DNA from: Oscillospiraceae bacterium
GTDB lineage: Bacteria; Bacillota; Clostridia; Oscillospirales; Oscillospiraceae
Direction: 5' to 3'
Assembly (NCBI GenBank): GCA_902798545.1
Contig: CADBWQ010000003.1
Coordinates: 291,848 to 355,847 of the forward strand
Length of the DNA stretch: 64,000 nt
Of this stretch, positions 21,612 through 39,362 are shown one piece after another. Position numbers and translations under genes: made by a program. Within the stretch, counting starts at the first letter, position 1, and each line of letters begins with the position of its first letter. The notes below the pieces were generated by a model, which was given only the letters and a program-made list of their open reading frames with translations, was not told where the DNA came from and did not search any database.

Positions 21612-21651
21612 CCGGACCGGCATCCGCATTTCATTCTCTCCATCTATCCAT

Positions 21652-21716
21652 CAGATCCGTGCTCTTCCATCCGGACGGCACGGATCTGATTCCGTTCCGG
21701 ATGCAGCTCTTTTTTC
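21652..21716 (+). terminator. Probable terminator after symporter
   Basis: Stem CAGATCCGTGC/GCACGGATCTG (11 bp) is followed by a second short pairing and then CTCTTTTTTC about 20 bases later. The spacing to the T-tract is unusual, so this is tentative. Confidence 0.45.
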
Positions 21717-21725
21717 ATTTCTCTC

Positions 21726-21754
21726 TTGCACTTTCGGCTGTTTTCCGCTAAACT
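21726..21754 (+). promoter_or_regulatory. Promoter of FAH-family gene
   Basis: TTGCAC (21726-21731), 17-bp spacer, TAAACT (21749-21754), 38 bases before the ATG. Confidence 0.5.
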
Positions 21755-21792
21755 GTTTCCAATCTTTTTATACACAGGAGTGACAGTCTGTT

Positions 21793-22945: not shown

Positions 22946-23614
22946 TCAGATTTTCAGGCTCAGATTCTCGCCGCAGATGCCTGCAAAAGCTCCGTTTTTC
23001 TTATGGGGGGAATCGGGGTGGCAGGTCAGCCATTTATTGCGCATCCAGAGCATCTTCTCTTCACCCTCAGCAGTAGTATTTACTGAAGTCAGGGCTTCAT
23101 TCGTGCCCTTCTCGAGAATTACCAGGCAGCGGAAACCGTCTTCGGTGATGCGGCAGGGTGCGAAATGCAGCACCAGGGGGAAGATTTCTACCAGCACACC
23201 GGCCGGCAGATAGAAGCCCACTACATCGGCGCTGTCCAGTCTGCCATCGTCCAGCTGCTCCGGCAGCGCCAGCAGCAGCACCAGCCCGGTGGTAGTGAAG
23301 TTCACTTCACTGCACTTGTGGTACTCCATGGCGTTGAGCTGGAAGCCGCGGCCGTTGCAGTAGCCCGCCTCGATCGGCATATCGCCAAATACAACGCGCT
23401 TCAAATCCTTCATGAGGCCAGCCGCCTCCAGCACAGGCACAGAAGCCTGGTAGCAGTTTCCCTCTGCCGGAATGGCGCAGGTATCCAGGGCGGCTGCAAG
23501 CTCCGCGGTCTCACCAGCCAGAACGCGTCCATAGCGTCGGAACTCCGGGTCCGTCACGCAGTAGAGGGGCAGACCGGGGTTCTTTTTCCGAAGCATTTCC
23601 AATACATTTTCCAT
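22946..23614 (-). CDS. DUF4867 family protein
   Basis: 222 residues, soluble. Resembles DUF4867 (opening MLRKKNPGLPLYCVTDPEFRRYGRV, central EYHKCSEVNF, HFAPCRITEDGFRCLVILEKGTN); function unknown to me, possibly a cupin-like sugar-binding or mutarotase-type fold. It is the last gene of the seven-gene minus-strand operon; its start overlaps the ROK regulator stop by one base (TAATG), behind GGAGG. The position suggests a role with the sulfo-sugar or its regulator. This is inference. Confidence 0.7.
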   Translation of the reverse strand: MENVLEMLRKKNPGLPLYCVTDPEFRRYGRVLAGETAELAAALDTCAIPAEGNCYQASVPVLEAAGLMKDLKRVVFGDMPIEAGYCNGRGFQLNAMEYHKCSEVNFTTTGLVLLLALPEQLDDGRLDSADVVGFYLPAGVLVEIFPLVLHFAPCRITEDGFRCLVILEKGTNEALTSVNTTAEGEEKMLWMRNKWLTCHPDSPHKKNGAFAGICGENLSLKI

Positions 23615-24834
23615 TACCGTATTCCTCCGTTGTCGATATAGTTCTGAACTGCCAGCAGACCGGCTGCTCGATCCTCCAGCTGCTGGTTGTACTTGCTCTT
23701 TTCAACGACCACATCGTGCCGGGTATCTACCCCCTCCTGCAGCTCGCTCATGAGCCTGGAGAGGTAATAGGCGTCCTCAAACAGACTTCCATAGAGGACG
23801 ATCTTCCCGGGGTCCACCAGATAGATCACCGCCTTGATGGCTGTTCCCAGTGCCTGAATCGCACGGTCGACGATCTCAGATGCTCCCTCGTCGCCGTTGC
23901 TTGCGGCAGCAAAGACATCGAATACACTGAGGCTGTCGGTATCCCGGTTCCGGTATTTCCGCCACAGCAACGGTGTCTTCTCCGGCGACAGGATCGCAAT
24001 TGCGTCCTCACGCATGGACCCGGGTGAGGCAATGGTCTCGAGGCAGCCGCTCTTTCCGCAGTGGCAGGGCTTGCCGCCCCGGCGGATCACTGGGATGTGA
24101 CCGATCTCGGCGCACTGTGCTGTTACACCGTGCCAGATTTTGCCATCGATGGAGAGCGCCGCACCGATGCCATAACCGCATCGTACAAAAAACTGGGAGC
24201 CGGATGTCTCGTCTCTGGAGACAAACATCTGCGCCGCAAAAAGCGATCGGACATTGTTCTCCATGATTGTCCGAAACCCGGTCAGTCTTTCGAATTCCTC
24301 ACAGAGTGGATAGTCGGTCTCGGCCAGTGCGCCGAAGCTGTTTCGCACGATACGCCCATCTTCGGACGTGATGCCGCGTACCGCAAGTCCGAGGCCAATC
24401 ACGGACTCTTGTTGAATTCCGTATTCCTTCGTGAGTTCCAGGAGTCGGGCGGAGAGCCGTTCTGCTGTCTCTCTGGCTGCGGCTTTCGGCCCAAGCTCGA
24501 TTTCCTCGGAAAAGATCACATTCCCGTCCAGCCACACCGCTGACAAAATCGCCTGCCTGAGGTTGATGAGCACGCCAAGGCCGCAGGCAGCCTCCGCATT
24601 GATGTCAATCAGGATCTCGCGCCGCCCGGCACCGCTGCTGGAGAGTATCTCTCCTTCTACCAGCAGGCCGTCCGCGATCATCTCGCCGACGATCTTGGTG
24701 ATGGCGGCGGGTGTCAGGTGCATGTTCTCGGCAAGCCGCTTGCGGGACATCGCGCCCTTCTCGTGGAGGATCCGCAGCGCCGCACTCCGGTTGCTGCGTT
24801 TCACACTCATCAAATTGTCACCCTGATAGGACAT
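23614..24834 (-). CDS. ROK-family transcriptional regulator
   Basis: 406 residues. N-terminal winged helix-turn-helix (about 8-70: SNRSAALRILHEKGAMSRKRLAE...TPAAITKIVGEMIADGLLVE) and a C-terminal sugar-kinase-like ROK domain with EIGHIPV and the zinc motif CHCGKSGCLETIAS. NagC/XylR-type regulators bind a sugar and release DNA. Being inside the sugar-sulfonate operon it most likely senses sulfoquinovose or an intermediate and controls the divergent promoters at 29376-29465. Confidence 0.85.
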   Translation of the reverse strand: MSYQGDNLMSVKRSNRSAALRILHEKGAMSRKRLAENMHLTPAAITKIVGEMIADGLLVEGEILSSSGAGRREILIDINAEAACGLGVLINLRQAILSAVWLDGNVIFSEEIELGPKAAARETAERLSARLLELTKEYGIQQESVIGLGLAVRGITSEDGRIVRNSFGALAETDYPLCEEFERLTGFRTIMENNVRSLFAAQMFVSRDETSGSQFFVRCGYGIGAALSIDGKIWHGVTAQCAEIGHIPVIRRGGKPCHCGKSGCLETIASPGSMREDAIAILSPEKTPLLWRKYRNRDTDSLSVFDVFAAASNGDEGASEIVDRAIQALGTAIKAVIYLVDPGKIVLYGSLFEDAYYLSRLMSELQEGVDTRHDVVVEKSKYNQQLEDRAAGLLAVQNYIDNGGIR

Positions 24835-24856
24835 GAACTACCTCTCTTCTGATCTT

Positions 24857-25771
24857 TCAGGTGTCGCGGGTCGGTCTCCCGCTGTGATTGATTCGGCCGC
24901 GCTGCAGGATCACTGCTGCGCCGGCCAGCACCACCAGGATACCCAGGACCTTTTTCACCGTCAGTTCTTCGTTCAGGAAGAATACGCCGATAAAGCAACT
25001 CAGCACCGGCATCAGCAGGAGATACAGCTTGACCAGCCAGACTTCGAAGTGTCTGAGATTGCGGTAGTAGAAGAAATAGATTCCCGTCTGGGCAAGTCCG
25101 CCCAGGATCACCAGCCACCAGAAGCCGCTCCCCATGTTCTGAGGGATACGGAGCTCACCGTGCAGCGCGGCACTGCAGCCGAAAAGGATCAGCACCACAG
25201 CATTGTTGTAGTAGGAGATCATATCCGCGTCTTCATGGTACTTCTCCTGAGCCGCCTTGATGATAAATGCGTTCGCGCTGACGCAGGCTGCGGAGAGCAG
25301 AAAGTAGAGGTCCGTCACATGCAGGGTCATGCCGCCGAAGTCGACACCCAGCACCAGCAGCACGCCGCCCAGCATGATCAAAGTCCCAAGCCAGTCGGAG
25401 ATGTAGAGCCGCTTGTGGTAGAGAATGACCGTGGCAAGGTTCACCATGAGGACATCGGTCTTCAGCAGCGCGGTACCGGTGCTCAGTGAGCCGCCGGCAT
25501 AGCCGAGATTTGCAAACAGATCCAGCAGAAAACCGAACACGCCGATCATGACCAGGATCCGCACCGCCTTGCCCTGGTGGAAAAGGCGGCTGAAGTTCCG
25601 GTCGGCCAGCAGCTGGATCGTCAGAAAGATCAGCGCTGCGCTGCGCAGGAGGAAGCCCGCAAGCCTCGCGGAACCGGTCGCATCCACAACGATTTTGCTT
25701 ACTGCGTAATAGATCGACCAGGAGACCACCATTCCGATCACCATCAGGGTGTATTTCAAGTCATCCTTCAT
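24857..25771 (-). CDS. EamA/DMT-family transporter
   Basis: 304 residues, ten TM segments in two EamA repeats (AVSKIVVDATGSARLAGFLLR in the first; PVLSCFIGVFFLNEELTVKKVLG near the end, the usual second-repeat signature). DMT permeases import or export small metabolites. In a fermentative sulfoglycolysis operon it could take up sulfoquinovose or export DHPS. Preceded by AAGAGGA; separated from the upstream dehydrogenase gene by a perfect GC-rich palindrome. Confidence 0.8.
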   Translation of the reverse strand: MKDDLKYTLMVIGMVVSWSIYYAVSKIVVDATGSARLAGFLLRSAALIFLTIQLLADRNFSRLFHQGKAVRILVMIGVFGFLLDLFANLGYAGGSLSTGTALLKTDVLMVNLATVILYHKRLYISDWLGTLIMLGGVLLVLGVDFGGMTLHVTDLYFLLSAACVSANAFIIKAAQEKYHEDADMISYYNNAVVLILFGCSAALHGELRIPQNMGSGFWWLVILGGLAQTGIYFFYYRNLRHFEVWLVKLYLLLMPVLSCFIGVFFLNEELTVKKVLGILVVLAGAAVILQRGRINHSGRPTRDT

Positions 25772-25790
25772 ACCATCGTCCTCTTGTGAA

Positions 25791-25816
25791 ATCCCCGCCC
25801 GGCCGGGCGGGGATTG
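25791..25816. repeat. Perfect 26-bp palindrome inside the operon
   Basis: AATCCCCGCCCGG followed directly by its reverse complement. No T-tract on either strand, and it lies between the dehydrogenase stop and the EamA start, so it is more likely an mRNA processing or stability element than a terminator. Confidence 0.7.
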
Positions 25817-25863
25817 AATTCTTCACTCCGGCCATCCCGAAGGTATGGCGGTAAAACGGTTTA

Positions 25864-26961
25864 TCAGGCCAGCTTCTCGAACATTGCCCGAAGGGCAGCT
25901 TCGTCCATCTGCACGGGGTTATTGTTCATCAGGCCGTGGACGGCACAGTCATGAGCCAGCTTATCGAGATTGACTTCACCCAGGTCACCCAGGCGGCTGC
26001 GCAGGCCGGCCAGTTTCTTGAGTGCCGCGATGCGCTGAGCGAGTTCTTCGGTTCCGGTGAGACCGACCCGGCGGCAGAGGAGCTCCAGGCGCTCGTCTGC
26101 GTTGATGCGGACAAAGCTGTCCAGCGTGAAGGCGCAGGCCTCGCCGTGGGGCAGATGATAGTCCTCAGACAGAGGATAGCTGCAGGCGTGGCAGCCGGCG
26201 GTTTTCGGCAGGGCGAAGCTCAGGCCGCCAAGCAGAGAGGCATAGGCCATGTTGGAACGCGCTTCCAGGTTGCTGCCATCGGTATAGGCCGTCTCCAGGT
26301 TTTCCAGAATCGTCCGGACGGCTTCCACCGCCATCAGGTCAGAGATCGGCTGGTGGTTCTTGCTCCAGTAGCCTTCGAGTGCGTGTGCCATGGCATCGAG
26401 ACCGGTGTTCATGGTTGTGCGAGGAGGAACAGTACTGCTGAGCACCGGGTCTACGATGGCCACTTTCGGCATGAAGACCGGGTTATTGATGGTCTTCTTC
26501 TCGGTCTCGTGGCTGATGACGGAGACCTGTGTCACCTCGCTGCCGGTTCCGGCCGTTGTCGGAACCGCGATGATGGTCAGGCGCTCTGCCGGGAAGGGCT
26601 TCTCCCCGTGATAGTAGTCGATGGCTTCCCCATCGCTGAGGGCGATAGCAGCGGCGAACTTCGCCGTGTCGATGGCGCTGCCGCCGCCGATGCCGATGAT
26701 GGCGTCAGCCCCGGTCTCACGGGCCAGGCGGGTGGTCTCGATGACACCGGAGAGCTGTGGGTTCTGCTCCACGCCGCCGAATACGGCGACAATACGGCTG
26801 TCATTCCCCTGCATCTCCTTCGCCGTCGGGGCAAAGTGTCTGCCGCAGGCGATGACGCAGCGCTCCAGCCCGAGTTCTTTCAGGACTTCACCGAGCTTTG
26901 CAAACTTTCCCTTGCCGAAATAGATCTTGACCGGCTGGGAATAGATAAAATCATGCGCCAT
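25864..26961 (-). CDS. Iron-type (group III) alcohol dehydrogenase, probable sulfolactaldehyde reductase
   Basis: 365 residues from the ATG at 26961, overlapping the end of the RpiB-like gene by 11 bases with GAGG inside that gene. Family motifs: GIGGGSAIDTAKF (NAD-binding), VPTTAGTGSEVTQ, and metal ligands in the order D (NTGLDAMAHALEGYW) / H (AMAHALE) / H (ACSYPLSEDYHLPHGEACA). In the sulfo-TK pathway this position is taken by the NADH-dependent reductase turning sulfolactaldehyde into 2,3-dihydroxypropane-1-sulfonate. Specificity is inferred from context. It could also be a fermentative ADH. Confidence 0.85.
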   Translation of the reverse strand: MAHDFIYSQPVKIYFGKGKFAKLGEVLKELGLERCVIACGRHFAPTAKEMQGNDSRIVAVFGGVEQNPQLSGVIETTRLARETGADAIIGIGGGSAIDTAKFAAAIALSDGEAIDYYHGEKPFPAERLTIIAVPTTAGTGSEVTQVSVISHETEKKTINNPVFMPKVAIVDPVLSSTVPPRTTMNTGLDAMAHALEGYWSKNHQPISDLMAVEAVRTILENLETAYTDGSNLEARSNMAYASLLGGLSFALPKTAGCHACSYPLSEDYHLPHGEACAFTLDSFVRINADERLELLCRRVGLTGTEELAQRIAALKKLAGLRSRLGDLGEVNLDKLAHDCAVHGLMNNNPVQMDEAALRAMFEKLA

Positions 26962-27427
26962 AGATCTTTGCCTCAATCTCGTCCACCTTGGCGGCAAACT
27001 TGTGCATGTTGGCGGCACGCCAGTCTTCCAGATCCTGACACCAGTCGGTGGCGAGGAAGGTCTTGACCATCTCGACGGCCATTTCCGGTCCGACGATCCA
27101 GCCGCCCATGCAGAGGATGTTCGCATTGTTGATGGCGCGGGCCATCTTGGCGGAATAGACGCCCTCGCAGGCAACCGCGTAAACACCCTTGTACTTGTTG
27201 GAGACAACGGACATGCCGGCGCCGGTGCCGCAGATCAGCACAGCCCTGTCATAGGTGCCGTTCTGGACCAGAGGGGCAACCTCGCTCGCAACCTGATAAT
27301 AGGGATGAACCTGTTCGAGATCGGTGGTGCCAAGATCGTCGAACTCGACACCTGCTTCGGCCAGATATGCTTTGATGGCTTCCTTCGCGGAAAAACCGGA
27401 CTTATCGCTTCCAATGGCAATTTTCAT
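26951..27427 (-). CDS. RpiB/LacAB-family isomerase, probable sulfoerythrose isomerase
   Basis: 158 residues with the RpiB fold: IAIGSDKSGF, ICGTGAGMS containing the proton-transfer C66, and YSAKMARAINNANILCMGG. Compared with E. coli RpiB (recalled from memory), the ring-opening His99 is Ile99, the His after the N-terminal Asp is Lys9, and the GIR and GSRVVG arginines are replaced (GVY, GGWIVG). Losing ring-opening and phosphate-binding residues fits an open-chain sulfonated tetrose rather than ribose 5-phosphate. It lies between the split transketolase and the dehydrogenase, matching the sulfo-TK isomerase usually called SqwI. Confidence 0.85.
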   Translation of the reverse strand: MKIAIGSDKSGFSAKEAIKAYLAEAGVEFDDLGTTDLEQVHPYYQVASEVAPLVQNGTYDRAVLICGTGAGMSVVSNKYKGVYAVACEGVYSAKMARAINNANILCMGGWIVGPEMAVEMVKTFLATDWCQDLEDWRAANMHKFAAKVDEIEAKIYGA

Positions 27428-27485
27428 CTTTTTTCTCCTTTATTCTCCGCAATTCCGGACAGAATCGGATATCAGTCAAAAGTAT

Positions 27486-27509
27486 GATCCCGCCCCGCAG
27501 GGCGGGATC
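27486..27509. repeat. GC-rich hairpin inside the operon
   Basis: GATCCCGCCC, a 4-base loop and GGGCGGGATC. On the minus strand no real T-tract follows (CATACTTTTG). It sits between the transketolase B gene and the RpiB-like gene, like the palindrome at 25791-25816. Confidence 0.6.
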
Positions 27510-27525
27510 TTTCATGTTGGAATGA

Positions 27526-28449
27526 TTACTTCAGGGTGACTGCCTTTCTGGCGCTGGCGAGGATGTTCTCGACCGTGAGGCCGGTGGCTTCGCGCAGATA
27601 CGGAAGCTTCCCGACTTCGCCAAAGTGATCCTGGACACCGACGGCGACAACGGGGATCTTCTCCATTGCGAGGGCTTCGAGGACTGCCGATTGCAGGCCG
27701 CCGATGACATTGTGGTTCTCCACGGTCAGAACCGCGCCGGTCTTGCGGGCGGAGGCGACAACCGTTCCCTTGTCGATGGGCTTGATGGTGTGGACGTTGA
27801 TGATCTCGGCATCGATGCCTTCCTCGGCGAGCTTTTTGGAGGCCTCAACAACGTCGGCGGTCAGCATGCCACTGACAAAGATGGTGAGATCCTTGCCCTC
27901 CTTGATGGTGTCGGCCTTGAAAAGATCAAACTTGTAGTCCTCTCCGAAGACGACAGGAAGCTGCTTGCGGAACAGGCGGACATAGACCGGACCGTCATAC
28001 TCGTTCAGGACTGGCATCGCGGCACGGAGCTGAACCTCGTCCACGGGCTCGAAGATGACCATGCCGGGGATGGAGCGGATGACACCAATGTCTTCCATGC
28101 TCATGTGGGTACCGCCGTTGAGTTCGGCAGAGATGCCGGGGTCGGTGCCGACAATCTTGACGTTGCGCTTGGCATAGGAGATGGAGATGGCGATCTGGTC
28201 GCAGATGCGGCGGGTTGCAAACGGAGTGAAGCTCTCAATCCAGGGCTTGAAGCCGTAGCTGGAAAGGCCGGCAGCGATGGAGGCCATGTCCTGCTCGGCA
28301 ACGCCGCAGTCAAAGCTCTGCTCGGGGAACTTGGCGCGGAGGCTCAGGGTACCGCTAGCCTTGCCCAGGTCGGCGTCCAGAATGACAACGTGTTTGTCCT
28401 TTTCCATCATTTCCGCGAGGCACGCGGCATAAACAGCTCTCATTTCCAT
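27526..28449 (-). CDS. Transketolase, C-terminal (pyrimidine-binding) subunit
   Basis: 307 residues. Pyr-binding domain with the catalytic Glu motif FDCGVAEQDMASIAAGLSSYG, then the C-terminal TK domain (NVHTIKPIDKGTV, VENHNVIGGLQSAVLEALA). Functions as a heterotetramer with the N-terminal subunit encoded 3 bases upstream. In the sulfo-TK route the pair removes C1-C2 of sulfofructose onto an acceptor, leaving 4-deoxy-4-sulfoerythrose. A strong GGGGAGGA precedes ATG 28449. Confidence 0.88.
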   Translation of the reverse strand: MEMRAVYAACLAEMMEKDKHVVILDADLGKASGTLSLRAKFPEQSFDCGVAEQDMASIAAGLSSYGFKPWIESFTPFATRRICDQIAISISYAKRNVKIVGTDPGISAELNGGTHMSMEDIGVIRSIPGMVIFEPVDEVQLRAAMPVLNEYDGPVYVRLFRKQLPVVFGEDYKFDLFKADTIKEGKDLTIFVSGMLTADVVEASKKLAEEGIDAEIINVHTIKPIDKGTVVASARKTGAVLTVENHNVIGGLQSAVLEALAMEKIPVVAVGVQDHFGEVGKLPYLREATGLTVENILASARKAVTLK

Positions 28450-28452
28450 GGA

Positions 28453-29280
28453 TTAGTCCTCCCCTCTGATTTCACGGATGGCTGCCTCAGCCTGCTCCTC
28501 GCTGACCGGGCAGTTGTGGTTGCCGGAACCCATGTCTTCAATCCACTTGACACCGCAGCCTTTCAGGGTGTTGAGGATGATCATGGTGGGCTTGCCGCTG
28601 TCGCGGCCGAGCTTGGCATGCTCAACAGCCTTTTCGACCTGCTCGACATCGTTGCCGTCTTCCACGTCGATGACGTTCCATCCGAAGGCCGCCCACTTCT
28701 CAGCGAGAGGAGCGATGTCGTTAACCTCGGCGACCGTGCCGTCGATCTGCTGCTTATTGTAGTCTGTGAAAGCGATGAGGTTGTCCAGCTTCTTGGCAGC
28801 GGCGAACATGGCCGCCTCCCAGATCTGGCCTTCCTGGCTCTCGCCGTCGCCGATCATGGCATAGATCGTCGCGCCGTCTTTCTCGAGCTTGGAGCCCAGT
28901 GCCACGCCGACAGCGCAGCTGAAGCCCTGGCCGAGGGAGCCAGTGGTCATATCGATGCCGATGGTGCGGTTCATATCGCAGTGGGACGGGAGATTGGTGC
29001 CTCCCTGGTTGAGGGTGAGCAGCTCTTTCTTATCAAAGTATCCGCGGTTTGCCAGTGTCGCATAGACGGCGGGGCCCGCATGACCCTTGGAGCAGATGAA
29101 ACGGTCGCGGCCTTCCATCTTCGGGTTGGCCGGGTCAATATTCATTTCCTTAAAATACAGGACTGCAAGTGCCTCGACAACGGACAGGCAGCCGCCGATA
29201 TGCCCGACGCCCAGGTGGCCGATGCAGGTCATGATATCGCAGCGGATATCTTTGCAGACTTCTTTCAGATCATAGTTCAA
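28453..29280 (-). CDS. Transketolase, N-terminal (TPP-binding) subunit
   Basis: 275 residues using a TTG start at 29280, because AAAGGAGGAGG lies 8 bases before it. An in-frame ATG at 29349 would add 23 residues but leaves that ideal Shine-Dalgarno inside the gene. TPP domain: HLGVGHIGGCLS, SKGHAGPAVYA, TGSLGQGFSCAVGVALG and the GDGESQEGQIWEA...DYN metal/TPP motif. First gene of the minus-strand operon, directly followed by its partner subunit. A housekeeping role is possible, but the gene context argues for sulfofructose. Confidence 0.88.
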   Translation of the reverse strand: MNYDLKEVCKDIRCDIMTCIGHLGVGHIGGCLSVVEALAVLYFKEMNIDPANPKMEGRDRFICSKGHAGPAVYATLANRGYFDKKELLTLNQGGTNLPSHCDMNRTIGIDMTTGSLGQGFSCAVGVALGSKLEKDGATIYAMIGDGESQEGQIWEAAMFAAAKKLDNLIAFTDYNKQQIDGTVAEVNDIAPLAEKWAAFGWNVIDVEDGNDVEQVEKAVEHAKLGRDSGKPTMIILNTLKGCGVKWIEDMGSGNHNCPVSEEQAEAAIREIRGED

Positions 29281-29375
29281 TGGTATGTCCTCCTCCTTTA
29301 TAAGTACCTCATAGAAGATGAAAATGGAAAATAACTTTGGAAGCTTCATTTAATTAAAACTTCTAAACAACTGAC

Positions 29376-29404
29376 AGTGTAACCCTAATTGCTGTGTTTG
29401 TCAA
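29376..29404 (-). promoter_or_regulatory. Promoter of the minus-strand sulfo-sugar operon
   Basis: Minus strand TTGACA (29404-29399), 17-bp spacer, TACACT (29381-29376). Back-to-back with the plus-strand promoter at 29437-29465, giving a shared control region. Confidence 0.75.
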
Positions 29405-29436
29405 TAGTGTATTCACTTCGCCCGGGAAATTAGATC

Positions 29437-29465
29437 TTGACATATCCCTGCTTTATGGTTATTAT
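29437..29465 (+). promoter_or_regulatory. Promoter of the plus-strand sulfo-sugar genes
   Basis: TTGACA (29437-29442), 17-bp spacer, TATTAT (29460-29465). The 32 bases between the two divergent -35 boxes leave room for the ROK operator, but I see no clean dyad I would assign to it. Confidence 0.8.
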
Positions 29466-29501
29466 GTTTTACGCTGTTAAGCAATTTTAGGAGGTATCAT
29501 G

Positions 29502-30839
29502 ATGAGCTTCTGTTCTGTCTATATTCCCGTGGGAGTTCCCACCTATCACCTCGAGACTGCCCAGGATCAGTTTGAGCGCTCCTGCAGCATGCTCCGCAGC
29601 GTGGACGCCAACTTTGTCTGCCCGGATGAGATGCTGCTGACGCTGGACAAGCTGCGCGCATTTCTTGACGGCTTGCAGCCGGACCTGATTGTGTTCCAGA
29701 ACCTGACCTTTGCCAACGCCGCCTATATGGCCGAGGTGCTCCGCCGCTATGACTGCCCGCTGCTGCTCTGGACTCTGCGTGAGCCGGTCATCGACGGCGG
29801 CAGGCTGCGTCTCAACTCTCTGACCGGCGCATACTCTGCCGCGAACACCCTTGCCGCCTTTGACAGCCGGGCATTCAACTGGTGCTTCGGTGCGCCGGAA
29901 GAGGACTCTGTCGTCGCCGCTGTGAAATCCACCGTCGAAGCCGCGAAGGTCAGGAAAGCAATGCACAGCCTCACCATGGCCGCCATCGGCCATACGCCTC
30001 AGGGCTTTGGGTTCGGCCGCGCGTTGGACAGCGAGCTGATGAACACCTTCGGTGTTGAGCTGGAGTCCATCGAGGCCCGTGAGCTGATTGACATGGCAAA
30101 GTCCTATACCGATGAAGACTGTGCCAAATACCTGCGGGATACCGAGAAGTGCACCTGCGGGCTGGACAGGACGCCCGAGAACAACCGGAACGACCATGCC
30201 CGCCTGCTGAAAGCCTATCGCGACTATGTCACTTCCCATCATATCGGTGCCCTGGCCTCTCGCTGCTGGCCTGATTTCTTTACCTCATTCGGCACTCCGG
30301 TCTGCACCGTGCTCAGCATGCTGAACGACGAGGGCGTCGCCGCAGCCTGTGAGGCAGATGTCTACGGTGCGCTCTCCATGTGGATCGGCATGCAGCTGTC
30401 CAATGAGCCCGTCTTCTTCGGAGATCCGGTCGCGATAGATGAAGCCGAGAGCAGCATCACCTACTGGCACTGTGGCGCCGCGGCATGCAGTCTGGCGCGC
30501 AAGGATACCGGCGCTGTCGTCGGTGTACACCCCAACCGCAAAATCGGCCCCGCCATGGACTTTGGCTGCGAAGCATTCCCCGAGGCCACCATCTTCCGTA
30601 TCGGCCGCAAGCCAGACGGCAGCTTTCGTTTCTTTATCGCTGAGGGTTCCGTTCTTGACAAGCCCAAGCAGTTCATCGGCACGTCCATCGTCGTAAAGAC
30701 CGACCGCAACAGTCGTGAAGTCGTCGAGGAGAGTATCCGCTCCGGCTTCGAGCCCCACTTTGCCATTGTCAAAGGCCATCACGCCGAGACCCTGAAGGTT
30801 CTGGCGGAGATGTTCGGTTTTGAAGTCTGCAAGTATTGA
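29502..30839 (+). CDS. L-fucose/L-arabinose isomerase-like protein, probable sulfoquinovose isomerase
   Basis: 445 residues from the second of two tandem ATGs (29502), 7 bases after TAGGAGG; the first ATG (29499) is 4 bases away. COG2407-like C-terminal signature: SRCWPDFFTSFGTPVC, NDEGVAAACEADVYGALSM (metal Glu and Asp) and YWHCGAAACSLA (metal His). Ketol isomerases of this group use Mn2+. Divergent from the split transketolase and upstream of a sulfoquinovosidase, so the natural reaction is sulfoquinovose to sulfofructose, the role of SqwD/SqvD in published pathways. The substrate is inferred. Confidence 0.8.
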   Translation: MSFCSVYIPVGVPTYHLETAQDQFERSCSMLRSVDANFVCPDEMLLTLDKLRAFLDGLQPDLIVFQNLTFANAAYMAEVLRRYDCPLLLWTLREPVIDGGRLRLNSLTGAYSAANTLAAFDSRAFNWCFGAPEEDSVVAAVKSTVEAAKVRKAMHSLTMAAIGHTPQGFGFGRALDSELMNTFGVELESIEARELIDMAKSYTDEDCAKYLRDTEKCTCGLDRTPENNRNDHARLLKAYRDYVTSHHIGALASRCWPDFFTSFGTPVCTVLSMLNDEGVAAACEADVYGALSMWIGMQLSNEPVFFGDPVAIDEAESSITYWHCGAAACSLARKDTGAVVGVHPNRKIGPAMDFGCEAFPEATIFRIGRKPDGSFRFFIAEGSVLDKPKQFIGTSIVVKTDRNSREVVEESIRSGFEPHFAIVKGHHAETLKVLAEMFGFEVCKY

Positions 30840-30911
30840 TTTGATGTTCCGGCCGTTCTCCCCTCTCGCGGGAGAGCGTTCCAATATCACCTCTGGAAAA
30901 GGGAGCCTTTT

Positions 30912-32921
30912 ATGAAACTAATCAATAATCTTTCCGACTGGTGCCTGGAGCGTCACGGCGAAACCCTTCTGCGCTCCTCCGCGTCCTTCCCGATGATCTA
31001 CGTCGGCTGCGGCCGGGAGAACTTCAAGATCGAGGACTATGTCATCGAACGCCGGGCACTTTCCCCCACTTCCTTCACGGAGCAGCCGGACGGCGCCGTC
31101 GTCGAATACGGCGAGGATCTCAGTCTCCGTCTGACACTTGACGGTGACTGCGCTGTGCTTCGCTTTACGCAGAAGAATCCCGCGATCAACCGCGTCTGGC
31201 TCCGCGTCCCCGCAGAACAGGACGAGAGCTGCTGGGGCTGCGGCGAACAGATGTCCTATTTCAACCTGCGAGGCAGACATTTCCCGCTCTGGACCTCCGA
31301 ACCCGGTGTCGGTCGTGACAAGACCACCTATGTCACATGGCGTTCGGACGTGGAAAACAGGGCCGGCGGCGATTATTACAATACGAACTTCCCTCAGCCG
31401 ACCTTTGTATCCAGCCGTCATTACTATCTGCATGCGGACACCACCGCCTATGCCGATTTCGATTTCCGCCATCCTGACTTTCACGAGCTGCAGTTCTGGG
31501 AGGTTCCCGCCTCCGTTCGGATCGAGGCGGCGGACAGCTTCCTCGACCTGCTGCGGAAAGAGACCGCGTTCTTCGGTCGTCAGCCGGAACTCCCCGACTG
31601 GATCTATAACGGTCTGATTATAGGAGTTCAGGGCGGAAATGAGCGCTCATTCGGCCTGCTGGAAAAGACCCTGCAGCATAACATCAGGGTCTCCGCCGTC
31701 TGGTGCCAGGACTGGTGCGGCAAGCGCGTTACATCCTTCGGCAAACGCCTGCAGTGGGACTGGCATTACCATCCCGGGATGTACCCCGATCTCCCCGCAG
31801 AGATTCGTAAGCTGCATGACCGCGGGATCCGGTTTCTGGGTTATATCAATCCTTATCTGGTCGAGGGCGGGGAGCTCTATCAGGAAGGACTGGAAGCCGA
31901 TGCGTTTGCCCGCCGCAGCGATGGAAGCATCTATCTCGTTGATTTCGGCGAGTTCAACTGCGGCGTCATCGACCTCACCAATCCAAAGGCCTACCGCTGG
32001 TTCAAGGACGAGGTCATAAAAAAGTACAGCCTCGACATCGGTATTGACGGCTGGATGGCCGACTTCGGGGAATATCTCCCGACGGATGATATCGTCCTCC
32101 ACAGCGGCAGAAGTCCCATGATCGAGCACAACCACTGGCCAGCGCTTTGGGCGAAGTGCAACTACGACGCTGTTTCGGAGTCCGGCAGGCTCGGTGATGT
32201 AGTCTATTTCATGCGTGCCGGCTTCACGGGCAGTCAGAAGTACTGCACACTGCTCTGGGCAGGTGATCAGAGCGTGGACTTCTCACGCCACGACGGGCTC
32301 TGCACCGTCATCTGTGCAGCGTTGAGTGCCGGAATGAGCGGCTGCGGGCTGACCCACAGCGATATCGGCGGTTATACCAGTCTATTTGACAATACCCGCA
32401 CAAAGGAAGTCCTTCTCCGCTGGGCAGAGATGGCAGCCTTTACGCCGGTCATGCGTACCCACGAGGGCAACCGGCCGGACACCAACTTCCAGTATTACGA
32501 CGATGAGGACTGTATGGACCGGCTTGCCCGTCTGGTAGATATACATATTGCGCTTGCCCCCCTGCTCAGGGCGCTGGTAAAAGAAAATGCGGATCAGGGC
32601 ATCCCTGTACAGCGCCCGCTCTTCCTGCATCACGAGGATGATCCGCGCTGCTATTCGGAACAGTTTGAGTATCTTCTCGGCGAAGATGTTCTCGTCGCCC
32701 CTGTCTGGCAGGCAAATCAGAGTGTGTGTACTGTCTATCTTCCCAGAGGGGAATGGATTCACCTCTGGACCGGGAAAGCCTGGGCGCAGGGTGATCATAC
32801 CGTCCCCGCCCCACTGGGCGACACCCCCGTCTTCTATCGGAGTGACTCACGCTGGGCAGAGCTGATGGAGGACATCCGTGCCCGCTTTGCGCAGCAGCAT
32901 GGAACAGGGAACTGTCTCTGA
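30912..32921 (+). CDS. Sulfoquinovosidase (GH31, YihQ-like)
   Basis: 669 residues. Closely follows E. coli YihQ as I remember it: WCQDWCGKRVTSFGKRLQWDW, GEFNCGVIDLTNPKAYRWFK, GWMADFGEYLPTD and WAGDQSVDF. Nucleophile D384 (MADFGEY), acid/base D452 (AGDQ), and all three sulfonate contacts of YihQ are present: R279 and W282 (equivalent to R301 and W304) and Y488 (equivalent to Y508). These separate sulfoquinovosidases from ordinary alpha-glucosidases, so the assignment is strong. No signal peptide: cytoplasmic hydrolysis of imported SQ-glycosides such as sulfoquinovosyl glycerol. Gap to the isomerase is 72 bases; a terminator follows. Confidence 0.93.
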   Translation: MKLINNLSDWCLERHGETLLRSSASFPMIYVGCGRENFKIEDYVIERRALSPTSFTEQPDGAVVEYGEDLSLRLTLDGDCAVLRFTQKNPAINRVWLRVPAEQDESCWGCGEQMSYFNLRGRHFPLWTSEPGVGRDKTTYVTWRSDVENRAGGDYYNTNFPQPTFVSSRHYYLHADTTAYADFDFRHPDFHELQFWEVPASVRIEAADSFLDLLRKETAFFGRQPELPDWIYNGLIIGVQGGNERSFGLLEKTLQHNIRVSAVWCQDWCGKRVTSFGKRLQWDWHYHPGMYPDLPAEIRKLHDRGIRFLGYINPYLVEGGELYQEGLEADAFARRSDGSIYLVDFGEFNCGVIDLTNPKAYRWFKDEVIKKYSLDIGIDGWMADFGEYLPTDDIVLHSGRSPMIEHNHWPALWAKCNYDAVSESGRLGDVVYFMRAGFTGSQKYCTLLWAGDQSVDFSRHDGLCTVICAALSAGMSGCGLTHSDIGGYTSLFDNTRTKEVLLRWAEMAAFTPVMRTHEGNRPDTNFQYYDDEDCMDRLARLVDIHIALAPLLRALVKENADQGIPVQRPLFLHHEDDPRCYSEQFEYLLGEDVLVAPVWQANQSVCTVYLPRGEWIHLWTGKAWAQGDHTVPAPLGDTPVFYRSDSRWAELMEDIRARFAQQHGTGNCL

Positions 32922-32982
32922 CTGCCGCAATCCCGGATATTGATAACACGCTGCCCGGCATGAGCAAATGGCTTATGCCAAA

Positions 32983-33036
32983 GACGCCGTCAGAGCGGTG
33001 GAAGCCGTCTACCGCTCTGACGGCGTTTGTTTCTCC
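32983..33036 (+). terminator. Terminator after the sulfoquinovosidase
   Basis: Stem ACGCCGTCAGAGCGGT / ACCGCTCTGACGGCGT of 16 bp with an 11-base loop, followed by TTGTTTCTCC. Separates the sulfo-sugar genes from the deaminase gene. Confidence 0.85.
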
Positions 33037-33089
33037 CCTGAACGACACTCACACAAGCCTGCCAGGCCATATTCCGAAGAAGATTGCGC

Positions 33090-33118
33090 TTGCCTGGAAT
33101 CGGCAAATCGCATATACT
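33090..33118 (+). promoter_or_regulatory. Promoter of the adenosine-deaminase-like gene
   Basis: TTGCCT (33090-33095), 17-bp spacer, TATACT (33113-33118); start near 33125. Confidence 0.7.
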
Positions 33119-33153
33119 TAAGAAAACGGGTATCGGCATCCGTCAGGAGAAGG

Positions 33154-35634
33154 ATGGATGAACAGAACGACGGGAGGTGTGTTGCCATCGTATTCTTTCA
33201 GCAGTTTTATCTGGACCGGGAAAAGGATATTGTTGTTGACCTCTATATGGAAGGTGAGCGGATGCATTACATCATGCGTACGCCCAACCACCGCACAGGA
33301 AACCTGATCCGGAATCTGGCCAGTCTCTTCGATCTCGCAGCGGCACAGGATGAGAGCGGTCTGCTCGTGATCCGTGGAGAAGTTCCCTGCTATTTTGACG
33401 GTGCAAACCGTCGTATGTATATTCTGCGCCTCGGCGGGACAAAGGTTGCAAACATTTTCCCGGACGGAAGCGTTGAACTCAAGGCGTCCATTCCTGCCAT
33501 ATCCAAAACACTGATGAGTCAGACCAAGGACTACCGGCTGGGTGTAGAAAAGACCCTGGTTAAGACCTATATCCGCAGCGAGTGCAAGTTCCATACCGAT
33601 CTGCATACACACATGAACGGAAATCTTCCACCCGAGCTTCTGATTGCACTTGGCGTGATGCACCAGATCCGCTATCCCTATTATTACATAAAAAAGCTTG
33701 GTCTGCACTGTACGCCGGAGCAGCACGGGCGGCTGGAAGCGGCCAGGGAGAAGGCGGAGCGGGAACTGGGTGATCTTCCGATGACTGGGAAACACCGGGA
33801 ACGGCGAATTGATGATTTCACCTTTATCAATTTTGCCGATCTCATTCTCGGCAATCCCGCAGACGCAGCGTCCAATATCGCACGCATACGCAATTCCCTG
33901 ACCATCCCGAAGGATGGGCAGGCTGTCTTTGCCGATCTGGAAAAAGTCTATCTTTACCGCTACATCTTCACGAAAGGGATCGCGGCAGAAAAGCAGTTTC
34001 CTGCCCTCAGCATTGAGCAGATTCCCAACCATGAAGTCCGCAACTATGCCTCCCGGATCCGGGATGACCGGGGGGATATACGCTATCGCCGGAACACGCT
34101 CTTTCAGGATTTGCTGCTCTGGATCGCAAGAGAATACCGGCGCTATGGAATTGAGTATGCCGAGATCACGGATACTTCGCTGCTCAATGCGGCGGAATTC
34201 CCGGCAAAACTGCGGCAGATTCACGAGGTCATGCCGAATATAACGCGGGAGACCGGGGTACTGCTGCGCTTTCTGGCGGGTATCCGTCGTACGCCTCTGA
34301 CCATAGTACGCGATCAGGTAACACCCGGCGACTATCTGGCGGAGAACTTACGCTGTCTCGGCATCACGGCGCGCGACCCCTATGTGGCTGGCGCGGATAT
34401 CATCGGCGAGGAGATCAACGATATTCTTGAGCTGCGCGGTGTGATCGGGGAACTTGTCAGAATTGCGGATGAAAACAGCGGTTTCGTCATCCGTATTCAC
34501 GCCGGCGAGAACGACAGTCTGCGTGACAATGTGGCCAATGCCATTCGCTGTGTTAAGGACGCGCTGCACGAAGGACAGGAATTCCCAACACTGCGTATCG
34601 GCCATGGCCTGTACACCTGCGACCTGAGAAGCGCCAAAGGGGCGCGCCTGCTTGAGGAGCTCCGTGACAACAGGGTCACGCTGGAGTTTCAGATCAGCTC
34701 CAATGTAAGGCTCAACAATCTCAGCAGTCTGGAGCACCACCCCCTGCGGCAGTATCTTGATGCCGGGGTTCGCTGCGTACAGGGTACGGACGGCGGCGCC
34801 CTGTACGGCACAAACTCCATCGATGAGGAATTGAGCCTTGAAAAACTGCTCGGCATGCGGTTTGAAGAGCTCTGCCGCATGCGTCAGAGCGAAGATGAGA
34901 TTCTTGTGAGCAGCCGGCAGGTTTTTGAAGAGAAATCCGAACAGTTTCAACGGGAGTTCCAATCCGGAGATCCGGAACGTTATTACCGCACACTTCTGGA
35001 ACAGACAACGCAGAACAGCAGAATTCTCTGGCAGGTATCTGAGAAACTGAACGCTGAGGAAGTACTCCGGGATCAGCTTTCTGAGCTGCCGGAGGATGGG
35101 TTCCCGATCATTATTGCAGGTGGAAGCTTCAACAACAGCAGCCACCGCAGCAGGCTCCGCGCGGATGACCGGGAATTCCTCGAAGCGCTTCTTGAGAATG
35201 CGAACCCGGAAAAGGCTTTTTTTGTGATTGGCCACAGTCTGACCGGGCAGGAAGCCTTTCTTGTACAGCAGGCGGCAGGCCGATTTCGGATCTTTGCCAT
35301 CGTGCCCCGCCTGATCAGCCGTGCAGAGAAGACACGGCTGCAAAAATCAGGGGTCCGTGTGCTGCTGAGCATTGAGAGTTCTCCCATGGGACTGTACAAG
35401 AGCTTCGCCTATGAGATTTTCAAGCGCAGGCCATCGGCACTTCTGGCATTCGACGGGAATTCGGCCGCCCTGAATCTGATTCAGGAAGCCAGGAACGGGC
35501 GGGAGAAATGCCGTATCTACATCAATCCCCGCTCACGCGGTCTTGCCGTGAAGGTCAGGACCCTTGAAGGCTATGTGCAGCCTCTGCGTAACGCCGTGGC
35601 AATTCTGAATGCGCTGGGAATTGAAAGAGCCTGA
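33154..35634 (+). CDS. Large adenosine-deaminase-like protein with N- and C-terminal extensions
   Basis: 826 residues from ATG 33154, behind AGGAGAAGG; an in-frame ATG at 32968 lies before the upstream terminator and promoter and is rejected. Residues 1-140 are an unrecognised domain. The deaminase barrel runs from about 145 with a full active site: H151 and H153 (LHTHMNGNLPPE), H449-A-G-E452, H484 (RIGHGLYT) and D546 (QGTDGG). About 640-826 is a Rossmann-like domain (PIIIAGGSFN, AFFVIGHSLTG, ALLAFDGNSAAL). Ordinary ADA is about 340 residues. Size and layout recall RdrB of the RADAR anti-phage system, but no RdrA ATPase is adjacent. Stand-alone transcription unit. Confidence 0.8.
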   Translation: MDEQNDGRCVAIVFFQQFYLDREKDIVVDLYMEGERMHYIMRTPNHRTGNLIRNLASLFDLAAAQDESGLLVIRGEVPCYFDGANRRMYILRLGGTKVANIFPDGSVELKASIPAISKTLMSQTKDYRLGVEKTLVKTYIRSECKFHTDLHTHMNGNLPPELLIALGVMHQIRYPYYYIKKLGLHCTPEQHGRLEAAREKAERELGDLPMTGKHRERRIDDFTFINFADLILGNPADAASNIARIRNSLTIPKDGQAVFADLEKVYLYRYIFTKGIAAEKQFPALSIEQIPNHEVRNYASRIRDDRGDIRYRRNTLFQDLLLWIAREYRRYGIEYAEITDTSLLNAAEFPAKLRQIHEVMPNITRETGVLLRFLAGIRRTPLTIVRDQVTPGDYLAENLRCLGITARDPYVAGADIIGEEINDILELRGVIGELVRIADENSGFVIRIHAGENDSLRDNVANAIRCVKDALHEGQEFPTLRIGHGLYTCDLRSAKGARLLEELRDNRVTLEFQISSNVRLNNLSSLEHHPLRQYLDAGVRCVQGTDGGALYGTNSIDEELSLEKLLGMRFEELCRMRQSEDEILVSSRQVFEEKSEQFQREFQSGDPERYYRTLLEQTTQNSRILWQVSEKLNAEEVLRDQLSELPEDGFPIIIAGGSFNNSSHRSRLRADDREFLEALLENANPEKAFFVIGHSLTGQEAFLVQQAAGRFRIFAIVPRLISRAEKTRLQKSGVRVLLSIESSPMGLYKSFAYEIFKRRPSALLAFDGNSAALNLIQEARNGREKCRIYINPRSRGLAVKVRTLEGYVQPLRNAVAILNALGIERA

Positions 35635-35686
35635 AATCCGTCCCTGATGTTGTTATGCTCATACAGAAAACTGTGTAAAATGCCAC

Positions 35687-35714
35687 TTGACGAGTTCTTT
35701 ATTGCAGATATAAT
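35687..35714 (+). promoter_or_regulatory. Promoter of the MFS gene
   Basis: TTGACG (35687-35692), 16-bp spacer, TATAAT (35709-35714). Confidence 0.75.
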
Positions 35715-35749
35715 AATCACCGCATTTTTATAATAAAGCGGTGATTTCG

Positions 35750-36970
35750 ATGCATGAGTCTTCCCGTCTGCTCCGTGTCGCAAATTTGGAATACGCCCTG
35801 ATTCAGGGGCTTTACTGGGGCAGCTTCTGCGGCATTGTAAGCTTTGCCTCCGTCTATCTGCAAGCCCGCGGGTACAGCAACACCGGGCTCGGCCAGATCC
35901 TCGCAGCCGGCTACATTCTGGGGTTTCTGATCCCTCAGCAGCTGGCAGCGCTGGTTGATCGCTCTGAGAAGGTCACGGTCTACCGATGCCAGTGGCTGCT
36001 GCTCATCCTTCAGGTGGTTCTGGTTCTCCTGCTGCGGCAGCTCCCCGGCAGAAGCCTGGCCGTCTCGCTGCTGACCACTCTGCTCATCGGTGTCGAAATC
36101 ACTCTGAATCCCATGAACACGGAGATCAGTGTCGACCTGGGTCTTCGCATCGGCCATATCAATTACGGAGCGGCCAGAGGAACCGGTTCCCTTGCCTTTG
36201 CGCCGGTTTCCGTGCTGATCGGTCATCTGCTTGAAATGATCGGTCCTCAGATCCTGCCGGCGGTGTTTCTCACCGGCATCGGACTGCAGGCGGCGGCGCT
36301 GCTTCTGCTCTGTCTCAGTATGCGGAAAGTCGAAGGAGATGCAGATCTTCGCCGCAGGAACAAGTCCGCCTCCAGCAGCTTCCCGCAGTTTTACCGGGAG
36401 AACCGCCGCTTCTTCGGTGTGCTCGCCGGGGTCGCGCTGCTTTTCTTCACCCACAACCTGGTAAACAACTATCTGATCAACGTGGTGCGGAACGTCCATG
36501 GCGACACCTCGGACATGGGCCTGATCAGCGGCTTTACCGCCGTCATGGAGATCCCCATGATGTTTCTGTATGATCGCCTGCTCCGCCGTTTCAGCTGTGC
36601 CTCTACTGTCTGCTTTGCCTCCTCGATGTTTGTGTTCAAGGCGGTGGCGATCGCTCTGGCTCCCAGTATGGGCGGTCTGTATGCAGCCAATGTTCTGCAG
36701 CTGGTCTCCTTCGCCATGATCACCCCGGCGATGGTCGAGTATGTCATTCTGAACATTGATCCCAAGGATTCCGCCAAGGGTCAGGCACTCGCCTTTGGAA
36801 TGGTGACTCTGGGGAACATTCTCTCCAGCGCCATCGGCGGTCCGCTCTATGACGCGCTGCCGGTGCGCACGGTCCTTCTGATCGGCGCCGGCGCGTCACT
36901 CGCGGGCGCCCTTCTCTGCCATGTTTTCACCCGTCCCGCTGTGCGTGCTGCAGTCTCTGCTGCCTGCTGA
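35750..36970 (+). CDS. MFS transporter (MFS_1-like)
   Basis: 406 residues, twelve TM segments, resembling the phenylpropionate/nucleoside-permease-like MFS group (N-terminal LEYALIQGLYWGSFCGIVSFASVYLQARGYSNTGLGQIL; central loop with GAARGTGSLAFAP). I prefer ATG 35750 with GGTGA upstream; GTG 35741 is also possible. The substrate is unknown. It lies 115 bases after the deaminase-like gene with its own promoter, so the link is only positional. Confidence 0.8.
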   Translation: MHESSRLLRVANLEYALIQGLYWGSFCGIVSFASVYLQARGYSNTGLGQILAAGYILGFLIPQQLAALVDRSEKVTVYRCQWLLLILQVVLVLLLRQLPGRSLAVSLLTTLLIGVEITLNPMNTEISVDLGLRIGHINYGAARGTGSLAFAPVSVLIGHLLEMIGPQILPAVFLTGIGLQAAALLLLCLSMRKVEGDADLRRRNKSASSSFPQFYRENRRFFGVLAGVALLFFTHNLVNNYLINVVRNVHGDTSDMGLISGFTAVMEIPMMFLYDRLLRRFSCASTVCFASSMFVFKAVAIALAPSMGGLYAANVLQLVSFAMITPAMVEYVILNIDPKDSAKGQALAFGMVTLGNILSSAIGGPLYDALPVRTVLLIGAGASLAGALLCHVFTRPAVRAAVSAAC

Positions 36971-36996
36971 TCCCTCACAATCCCCTCATCCGTTAT

Positions 36997-37052
36997 GAAA
37001 AACCTCACGCTGGTCACGGAACTTCCGTTTCCTGCGTGAGGTTTTCTTGTTT
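36997..37052. terminator. Bidirectional terminator between MFS gene and iron operon
   Basis: Stem AAAACCTCACGC/GCGTGAGGTTTT, loop of about 23 bases. T-rich on both exits (TTTTCTTGTTT plus; TTTTTC minus). Serves the MFS gene and the last iron-operon gene, which ends at 37058. Confidence 0.85.
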
Positions 37053-37057
37053 CTCCG

Positions 37058-37732: not shown

Positions 37733-37733
37733 C

Positions 37734-39343: not shown

Positions 39344-39362
39344 ATCGAGCGCCCCCGTTTCT

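Follow-up and report, generated by a model that had tools for sequence, protein, structure and literature searches.

The sulfoglycolytic transketolase (sulfo-TK) pathway for the breakdown of sulfoquinovose (SQ) ends in isethionate, through a branch with SqwF, or in sulfoacetate, through a branch with SqwD/SqwKL; DHPS is the product of the sulfo-EMP and sulfo-TAL pathways (as outlined in PMC9594981, PMC11659671 and PMC12890257). The archetype is that of Clostridium sp. MSTE9, which, compared by its description in the same three papers, shares SqvB, SqvD, SqwGH, SqwI, SqwF and the reductive isethionate branch with the locus reported here, and whose cluster was likewise found through YihQ. Its gene numbers suggest a linked ABC permease (PMC11659671), of which our cluster has none, and its SqwE is a sulfite/sulfonate transporter (PMC12890257), the counterpart here being an EamA permease. 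Faecalicatena sp. DSM22707, whose main product is isethionate, has a split transketolase with RAFDR, SqwI, an SAA reductase and a drug/metabolite permease, all features with a likeness here, but its cluster is described with a linked ABC transporter as well, together with two candidate transaldolases and a candidate NAD-dependent SQase, none of which occurs in our cluster, where YihQ is used (PMC11659671). The rumen setting is shared with Ca. Limivicinus sp900317375 and other rumen bacteria, whose clusters hold, by the gene names in a legend, YihQ, SftI, SqwGH, SqwI, SqwF, SqwE and SftX/DUF4867; Smo-type ABC transporters are among those drawn, unlike in our window (PMC13219744). Of 313 Ca. Limivicinus genomes, 35.5% are reported in this 2026 study to encode sulfo-TK, so the preliminary description of the present DNA, which called the pathway known from few organisms, is outdated on that point (PMC13219744; also PMC11659671). 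Eubacterium rectale, with its sulfo-SFT pathway, resembles the locus in SftX/DUF4867 and in its SQase structure 6pnr, the best solved match of our YihQ, but is described as cleaving sulfofructose by a transaldolase-type route, not a transketolase (PMC11968277). The E. coli yih cassette (sulfo-EMP) shares yihQ and also has the MFS transporters YihO and YihP, but its described route is a kinase/aldolase one with a sulfolactaldehyde reductase and DHPS as product (PMC12608037).

The window, a stretch of 64,000 nucleotides from an Oscillospiraceae genome that is 91.8% complete and close to ruminant-gut Oscillospiraceae MAGs (goat, deer and cattle guts), carries at 22946-32921 nine genes, all intact, in two divergent groups (Table 1). 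Every gene named in the preliminary description is present there; the DUF4867 gene lies within the same span and had gone unnamed. The sulfo-TK gene content is borne out by family, residue and neighbourhood tests, and from context and sequence we consider the cluster very probably one for reductive, isethionate-forming sulfo-TK catabolism of SQ. It is one more well-preserved instance of a pathway already described in rumen bacteria. The gene order is found again in relatives, so the arrangement is not due to chance. Of 240 relatives confirmed by scan, the best 80 make up the nearest named loci; among these, SqwG occurs in 79, SqwI in 74, SqvD in 72 and SqwF in 67; four loci (L119, L124, L161 and L170) have SqwG and SqwH only.

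Table 1 Features of the predicted SQ cluster and a neighbouring permease gene, in window coordinates
Feature	Position	Strand	Family match
DUF4867 cupin gene, sqvB/sftX-like	22946..23614	-	PF16161, 219.9 bits
ROK-family regulator (HTH + ROK)	23614..24834	-	PF00480, 126 bits; N-terminal MarR, HTH_24
EamA (DMT) permease	24857..25771	-	PF00892
sqwF-like iron-containing alcohol dehydrogenase (Fe-ADH)	25864..26964	-	PF00465/PF25137
sqwI-like RpiB/LacAB isomerase	26951..27427	-	PF02502, 147 bits
sqwH, C-terminal half of split transketolase	27526..28449	-	PF02779/PF02780
sqwG, N-terminal half of split transketolase	28453..29280 (longest ORF to 29349)	-	PF00456
Promoter of sqwG operon, TTGACA-17-TACACT	29376..29404	-	
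Promoter of sqvD-yihQ, TTGACA-17-TATTAT	29437..29465	+	
sqvD/sftI-like sulfoquinovose isomerase (FucI-like)	29499..30839	+	NF048012 SftI, PF02952
yihQ, GH31 sulfoquinovosidase	30912..32921	+	NF007746, 929.6 bits
MFS_1_like permease, weak candidate part	35741..36970	+	PF12832

The score of YihQ against its NCBIfam profile compares with a cut-off of 553 bits, and its solved matches are 6pnr (the best, 1070 bits) and 5aed (764 bits). The former was deposited in the E. rectale paper with its proven SQase SftG (PMC11968277). The window's protein carries Q240, Q266, R279, W282 and Y488 (QQRWY) together with D384 and D452; R279, W282 and Y488, singled out in the preliminary description, are indeed in place and correspond, in the alignment, to the R..W and Y of YihQ-type proteins with solved structures. 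We take these three to be the sulfonate residues, with an Asp nucleophile and an Asp acid/base alongside (D384, D452). The enzyme would release SQ from sulfoquinovosyl glycerol. A second GH31 group in relatives has Q in place of R279.

The next step, from SQ to sulfofructose, would fall to the isomerase, which matches the SftI profile over residues 7-445 with 387 bits (E 7.6e-116). An SQ isomerase of the SqvD/SftI type, which belongs to a sulfo-TK pathway, is present on this match, though under the curated cut-off of 700; a sequence search at E 0.001 returned no solved relative. The DUF4867 protein matches the solved DUF4867 protein 9gyy (E 5e-51), and its E/H/E/H metal site (E97, H99, E103, H150) is also found in 34 of 34 relatives located among the 80 named loci. 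Metal ligands have been reported for DUF4867, in a paper whose account also includes failed activity tests (PMC11968277). The protein is a putative SQ/SF mutarotase or ring-opening protein and could speed ring opening.

An R-A-F-D-R motif is reported for the split sulfofructose transketolase; that of Faecalicatena has RAFDR, as against RSFHR (PMC11659671). At the R, A, D and R positions, sqwH has R4, A31, D103 and R161, residues found in all 80 named loci and in 102 of 103 homologous rows at ≥60% identity, with the window counted in and some genomes counted twice, once as an unnamed and once as a named record. The four residues are not exclusive, as L086 (50.5% identical) has them without a recognised SqwI, SqwF or SqvD alongside. 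The best solved match of sqwH is the split transketolase 6yaj of C. hydrogenoformans. The sqwG half probably starts at TTG 29280 rather than ATG 29349, because AAGGAGG precedes the TTG and relatives have TTG at the same place. The neighbouring SqwI, whose position beside the transketolase is that of sulfo-TK, has counterparts at 55-100% identity in at least 65 of the 102 genomes of the genus, separate from RpiB-like matches of 36-46%. The window's genome holds two further split transketolases, with S/H on contig 8 and A/N on contig 9, and a second RpiB-like match besides SqwI, which rules out a housekeeping transketolase/RpiB set. SqwGH is predicted to transfer two C2 units, one after the other, onto glyceraldehyde-3-phosphate to give two xylulose-5-phosphate, and SqwI, the presumed 4-deoxy-4-sulfoerythrose isomerase, would act on the sulfoerythrose between the two transfers.

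For the Fe-ADH, the best NCBIfam match is TIGR03405 (PsrA), below cut-off, and the NF050025 sulfoacetaldehyde reductase profile gives 175 of 700 bits. Because the protein falls below every curated cut-off, the sulfoacetaldehyde step rests on context. Its metal ligands D190, H194, H259, H270 and H273 are kept in 66 of 66 relatives at ≥60% identity. The cut-offs missed by both isomerase and Fe-ADH could point to some other acidic or sulfonated sugar handled by the same steps, with SQ not the main substrate, and DUF4867 and fucose-isomerase-family proteins are also reported from ordinary ketose pathways (PMC11968277). Such a substrate is very unlikely: the transketolase has R-A-D-R, YihQ is close to solved SQases and has the presumed sulfonate residues, and sqwG, sqwH and sqwI of rumen relatives are highly transcribed during conversion of SQ to isethionate.

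With SQ as substrate of a reductive sulfo-TK pathway, the SqwF-type Fe-ADH (PF00465) is the presumed sulfoacetaldehyde reductase and would turn the leftover sulfoacetaldehyde into isethionate. An oxidative variant, leading from sulfoacetaldehyde to sulfoacetate, is described for Acholeplasma (PMC11659671, PMC9594981), but we give it very little weight here, with SqwD/SqwKL absent from the nine genes and an Fe-ADH present with its metal ligands. The preliminary description had instead named DHPS as the end product. Bifurcated TK/TAL clusters are known from Faecalicatena and Caproiciproducens, and a route of that kind, or sulfo-TAL, could yield DHPS via sulfolactaldehyde. The nine genes, however, include no transaldolase, so that none for sulfofructose accompanies SqwGH, and no SF kinase, aldolase or SLA reductase; nor did the genome, 91.8% complete, yield a match to a sulfo-TAL transaldolase in a search without positive control (the query, a confirmed TAL_FSA from a sulfo-TAL cluster, groups with ORFs of three other loci). 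A C2 sulfonate, moreover, is what sulfo-TK chemistry leaves, and a sulfolactaldehyde route is extremely improbable. Gene content and pathway literature speak against DHPS, and the product is most likely isethionate because the Fe-ADH is of the SqwF type. The EamA permease, found in 60 of the 80 named loci, is the presumed isethionate exporter, possibly of another family than the SqwE of MSTE9; a drug/metabolite permease is also listed for the Faecalicatena cluster (PMC11659671).

The two gene groups are read from divergent, near-consensus promoters, as had been claimed, and these are conserved in relatives. Two such sites compare with 0.8 ± 1.1 in shuffles, which taken alone is no proof. We hand-picked 22 relatives among the 80 named loci and aligned them with the window. 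Of the resulting 23 rows, all keep the -35 on the sqwG side (TTTGTCAA, the reverse of the -35) and 22 keep that on the sqvD side, L123 differing in the aligned column. A ROK gene is found in 49 of the 80 named loci, a count that takes in loci at contig ends, and its product, the presumed repressor of the pathway, would control both promoters. The window's spacer contains no convincing inverted repeat as a ROK operator. A TTAAgcAATT-like stretch, judged by eye, recurs in relatives.

The cluster had also been called complete-looking, which holds for the enzymes but not for transport, as no SQ importer was recognised inside it. At that place, the clusters of relatives hold ABC, GPH or TctABC-type importers: of 57 loci, 16 have ABC, 3 ABC and GPH, 18 GPH, 3 TctABC and 1 MFS, and 16 none recognised, some of these with fragments (23 of the 80 named loci, with <6 kb beyond sqvD or with sqvD missing, were left out). 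A linked importer in the window was dropped as a candidate, since the best matches that its own genome offers to an ABC binding protein and to TctA are distant (29% and 37%), and the neighbouring MFS gene was demoted. The genome does encode an unlinked GPH symporter (G000:C14:37444-38856), which is 62-81% identical to 16 cluster-linked GPH proteins selected from the 23 named loci having one. Among 102 genus genomes, 38 of the 40 carriers of this GPH are SqwI-positive (Fisher p 4e-8, a value that overstates independence given kinship), and 27 of 65 SqwI-positive genomes lack the GPH; cut-offs were 55% identity for SqwI and 64% for GPH, with fragments counted. Judged by eye, the GPH gene lies within 1 kb of a yihQ-like GH31 gene in at least 15 of the 40 and within about 8 kb in at least 2 more. 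Given this statistical link, SQ or SQ-glycerol probably enters through the unlinked GPH symporter. The GH31 group with Q for R279 often adjoins GPH in relatives, and because it is so frequent a neighbour the GPH might carry another glycoside.

Alternatively, the MFS gene of Table 1 could be the importer in place of the GPH. Downstream of yihQ, no other sugar-type transporter lies nearer. A homologue shares a cluster with yihQ in L216 and in the single genome recorded as both L215 and L177, follows yihQ in G474 (with an epimerase remnant between) and follows yihQ-tctCBA-epimerase in G483. In the window, however, an 888-aa deaminase-domain gene divides the two; homologue and cluster lie on different contigs in G010, G053, G054 and G466, and in G466 the contig collinear with window positions 33169-44999 is not the one that carries the cluster. 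We therefore regard the MFS gene as an unlikely importer.

TctA (≥76% identity) occurs in 5 of the 102 genus genomes, beside yihQ in all 5. For example, a diverged cluster in G493 has TctA at 76-77% identity, YihQ at 67%, SqvD at 63% and SqwG/I/H/F at 58/55/47/40%. In a limited literature search, TctABC-type transporters (tripartite tricarboxylate family) were not found named as importers of SQ or SQ-glycerol. We tentatively suggest, at a little under an even chance, that the SQ importer of this clade is a swappable module, one form being TctABC-type, on a fixed sulfo-TK core, and that the window's genome, without a linked module, relies on the remote GPH.

The locus is a further example of an isethionate-forming route for sulfosugar breakdown, in a lineage that neighbours ruminant-gut MAGs. 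With the product corrected from DHPS, cross-feeding of H2S producers via isethionate is plausible, and the partner would need an isethionate-cleaving enzyme. Users of SQ with a transporter gene elsewhere in the genome would escape a search for linked importers only, and the TctABC and GPH modules are transport candidates open to direct testing.

ORF calls and Pfam/NCBIfam scans bear out the sulfoglycolytic transketolase (sulfo-TK) cluster proposed in the preliminary description, dividing it into nine genes, all of them intact. On the minus strand, outward from the divergent spacer, lie the N-half and C-half of a split transketolase (SqwG/SqwH), an RpiB/LacAB isomerase (SqwI), an iron-type alcohol dehydrogenase (Fe-ADH, SqwF), an EamA permease, a ROK regulator and a DUF4867 protein (SqvB), and the plus strand carries a FucI-like isomerase (SqvD) and a GH31 protein (YihQ). 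The GH31 protein scores 929.6 bits against the NCBIfam YihQ model (cut-off 553), and the sole NCBIfam match of the FucI-like isomerase at E 0.001 is the sulfoquinovose (SQ) isomerase SftI (E 7.6e-116; 387 bits, below the 700-bit cut-off). Downstream of the start of its longest ORF, the transketolase N-half has an alternative TTG start that is preceded by AAGGAGG and aligned with TTG in 22 relatives. Both cluster promoters come close to consensus and are kept in aligned relatives. A TTAAgcAATT-like stretch recurs next to both and may be a ROK site; no convincing inverted repeat was seen in the window.

Coordinates of the cluster and of other features discussed
Feature	Sequence	Position
Nine-gene sulfo-TK cluster	window	22946-32921
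Transketolase N-half, start of longest ORF	window	29349
Transketolase N-half, alternative TTG start	window	29280
Alanine-symporter and FAA-hydrolase-type genes	window	20211-22635
888-aa gene	window	32968-35634
End of match to G466 cluster contig	window	32900
Start of match to different G466 contig	window	33169
Third split transketolase-like pair, window genome contig 9	L004	611-2424
DUF624 membrane protein (example)	L069	6050-6667
Distinct TctA beside sqwG	L172	5795-8852 (with TctB/TctC-like ORFs)
Distinct TctA beside sqwG	L176	near 5.9 kb

Active-site residues can be compared for most of these enzymes. R279, W282 and Y488, named earlier as the sulfonate contacts of the GH31 protein, are correct and are matched in alignment by the corresponding residues of YihQ and of 6pnr, the solved structure most like it. 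All four metal ligands given for the B. megaterium DUF4867 protein (PMC11968277) are kept in the window. In the transketolase C-half, A31 and D103 occupy the positions of S and H in ordinary transketolases, and a Faecalicatena study likewise sets RAFDR against RSFHR and proposes altered substrate specificity (PMC11659671). Among homologous rows at ≥60% identity, R-A-D-R is found in 102 of 103 (some genomes being present twice, as unnamed and named records), the remaining row, L084, having R-S-D-R; below 60% identity the pocket residues vary, and one locus, L086, has R-A-D-R without other sqw genes. The window's genome holds two further split transketolase pairs, with S/H on contig 8 and A/N at the two pocket positions on contig 9. 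The Fe-ADH residues D190, H194, H259, H270 and H273 are conserved in 66 of 66 relatives. Its top NCBIfam match, under cut-off, is TIGR03405 (PsrA, named as a phosphonate-associated Fe-ADH); a phosphonate aldehyde would presumably resemble sulfoacetaldehyde.

The preliminary description had the pathway ending in DHPS, a claim that is not supported. According to three papers (PMC9594981, PMC11659671, PMC12890257), DHPS is the product of sulfo-EMP and sulfo-TAL, and sulfo-TK leaves a C2 sulfonate, either isethionate with SqwF or sulfoacetate with SqwD/SqwKL. None of the nine genes encodes a transaldolase, and a search of the window's genome (91.8% complete) with the TAL_FSA transaldolase of a sulfo-TAL cluster, run without a positive control, gave no match. 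Isethionate, not DHPS, is therefore the supported end product.

A SqwH scan of named species genomes confirmed 240 relatives. In the best 80 of these, where counts are partly depressed by contig ends, SqwH (the query) occurs in 80, SqwG in 79, SqwI in 74, SqvD in 72, SqwF in 67, EamA in 60, ROK in 49 and SqvB in 34. SqwG and SqwH alone are recognised, without SqwI, SqvD or SqwF, at L119, L124, L161, L170 and L084 (the last with S for A31); by eye, unrelated small genes come next at L119.

The slot beside sqvD/yihQ in relatives is often filled by an importer whose type varies around a constant core. Among the 57 of the 80 loci with sufficient flank, the tally is ABC 16, ABC plus GPH 3, GPH 18, TctABC 3, MFS 1 and none recognised 16. 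A DUF624 membrane protein occurs in 23 of the 80 loci, chiefly those with ABC-importer genes. In the window no importer is recognised in this slot, and searches of its genome for the ABC binding protein and TctA gave no close match to either. The genome encodes three GPH-type proteins, the best of which, on contig 14, exceeds the TIGR00792 cut-off and is 62–81% identical to 16 cluster-linked GPH proteins (≥77% to seven), which themselves share a median of 69%. Full-length GPH matches across the 102 genomes of the genus fall into two classes, ≥64% or ≤48%. The upper class is present in 40 genomes, 38 of them SqwI-positive, whereas the remaining 62 include 27 that are (Fisher p 4e-8, a value inflated by shared ancestry); in the two exceptions, G025 and G480, a yihQ-like gene adjoins the GPH gene. 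By eye, a yihQ-like gene lies no more than 1 kb from the GPH gene in at least 15 of the 40 carriers; such neighbours frequently belong to a group that has Q at the R279 position. Because of this closeness, co-occurrence and adjacency, the contig-14 symporter is the best candidate importer, and the importer of the window's pathway is probably unlinked.

TctA at ≥76% identity occurs in five of the 102 genomes, beside yihQ in all five; the next match is at 39%, and partial matches reach at most 42%. The sulfo-TK clusters of these genomes carry TctC-TctB-TctA next to yihQ (L065, L067, L111, L118, L120, L216, L224, L228), followed by an aldose-1-epimerase gene at L111/L224 and L216; TctA passes Pfam, TctC is slightly under cut-off and TctB was assigned by eye and position. 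One of them, G493, has a diverged cluster (TctA 76–77%, YihQ 67%, SqvD 63%, TctC 60%, SqwG 58%, SqwI 55%, SqwH 47%, SqwF 40% identity). A distinct TctA, 42–44% identical to the yihQ-linked one, adjoins sqwG at L172 and L176, two loci with no recognised sqvD or yihQ; TctB/TctC-like ORFs were seen by eye at L172. Searches of open-licence papers for a tripartite tricarboxylate or TctA transporter in connection with SQ gave none that, judged by title and abstract opening, concerns SQ import.

The second YihQ-like GH31 group has Q at the position of the sulfonate arginine. The 74 aligned rows, in which some genomes count twice, comprise QQRWY (36), QQQWF (26; L070, L123, L142, L155, L163, L181 and 20 more), QQQWY (7; L091–L097) and five others. 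One QQQWF and one QQQWY member pass the YihQ cut-off. The QQQWY genes lie close to sqvB/sqvD-like genes, and in several cases a gene of transaldolase type is also there. Ca. Limivicinus is described with yihQ in two copies and with several clades of YihQ, the R279/Q difference going unmentioned in the accessible text (PMC13219744).

Downstream of yihQ, the window has first an 888-aa gene bearing an adenosine-deaminase domain and then an MFS gene. The window matches two different contigs of G466, the cluster contig up to 32900 and another from 33169, and a junction therefore lies between the two matches. The 888-aa gene, which separates yihQ from the MFS gene, has long N- and C-terminal parts outside its domain (386–638) and an 89% identical copy in G466 (L211). 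The alanine-symporter and FAA-hydrolase-type genes adjoining sqvB are common to the window and G465 and are not recognised next to the G466 cluster, though the G466 core is closer; among L225, L227 and L121, L227 has the FAA-hydrolase-type gene on the far side of yihQ instead. From these differences, the cluster appears to have changed genomic site.

By title, the 80 relatives are Oscillospiraceae, Ruminococcaceae, Clostridiales, Clostridia and a small number of other taxa; those titled RGIG give gut sites of goat, sheep, roe deer, yak, water buffalo and dairy cattle. SqwI orthologues occur in at least 65 of the 102 genomes of the genus. Sulfo-TK is reported from Ca. Limivicinus (35.5% of 313 genomes) and others, with high transcription of sqwG, sqwH and sqwI during conversion of SQ to isethionate (PMC13219744), and we infer that the window's genome belongs to Ca. 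Limivicinus. The cluster is real, intact and conserved; its pathway is known, and clusters of this kind have already been described in rumen bacteria.
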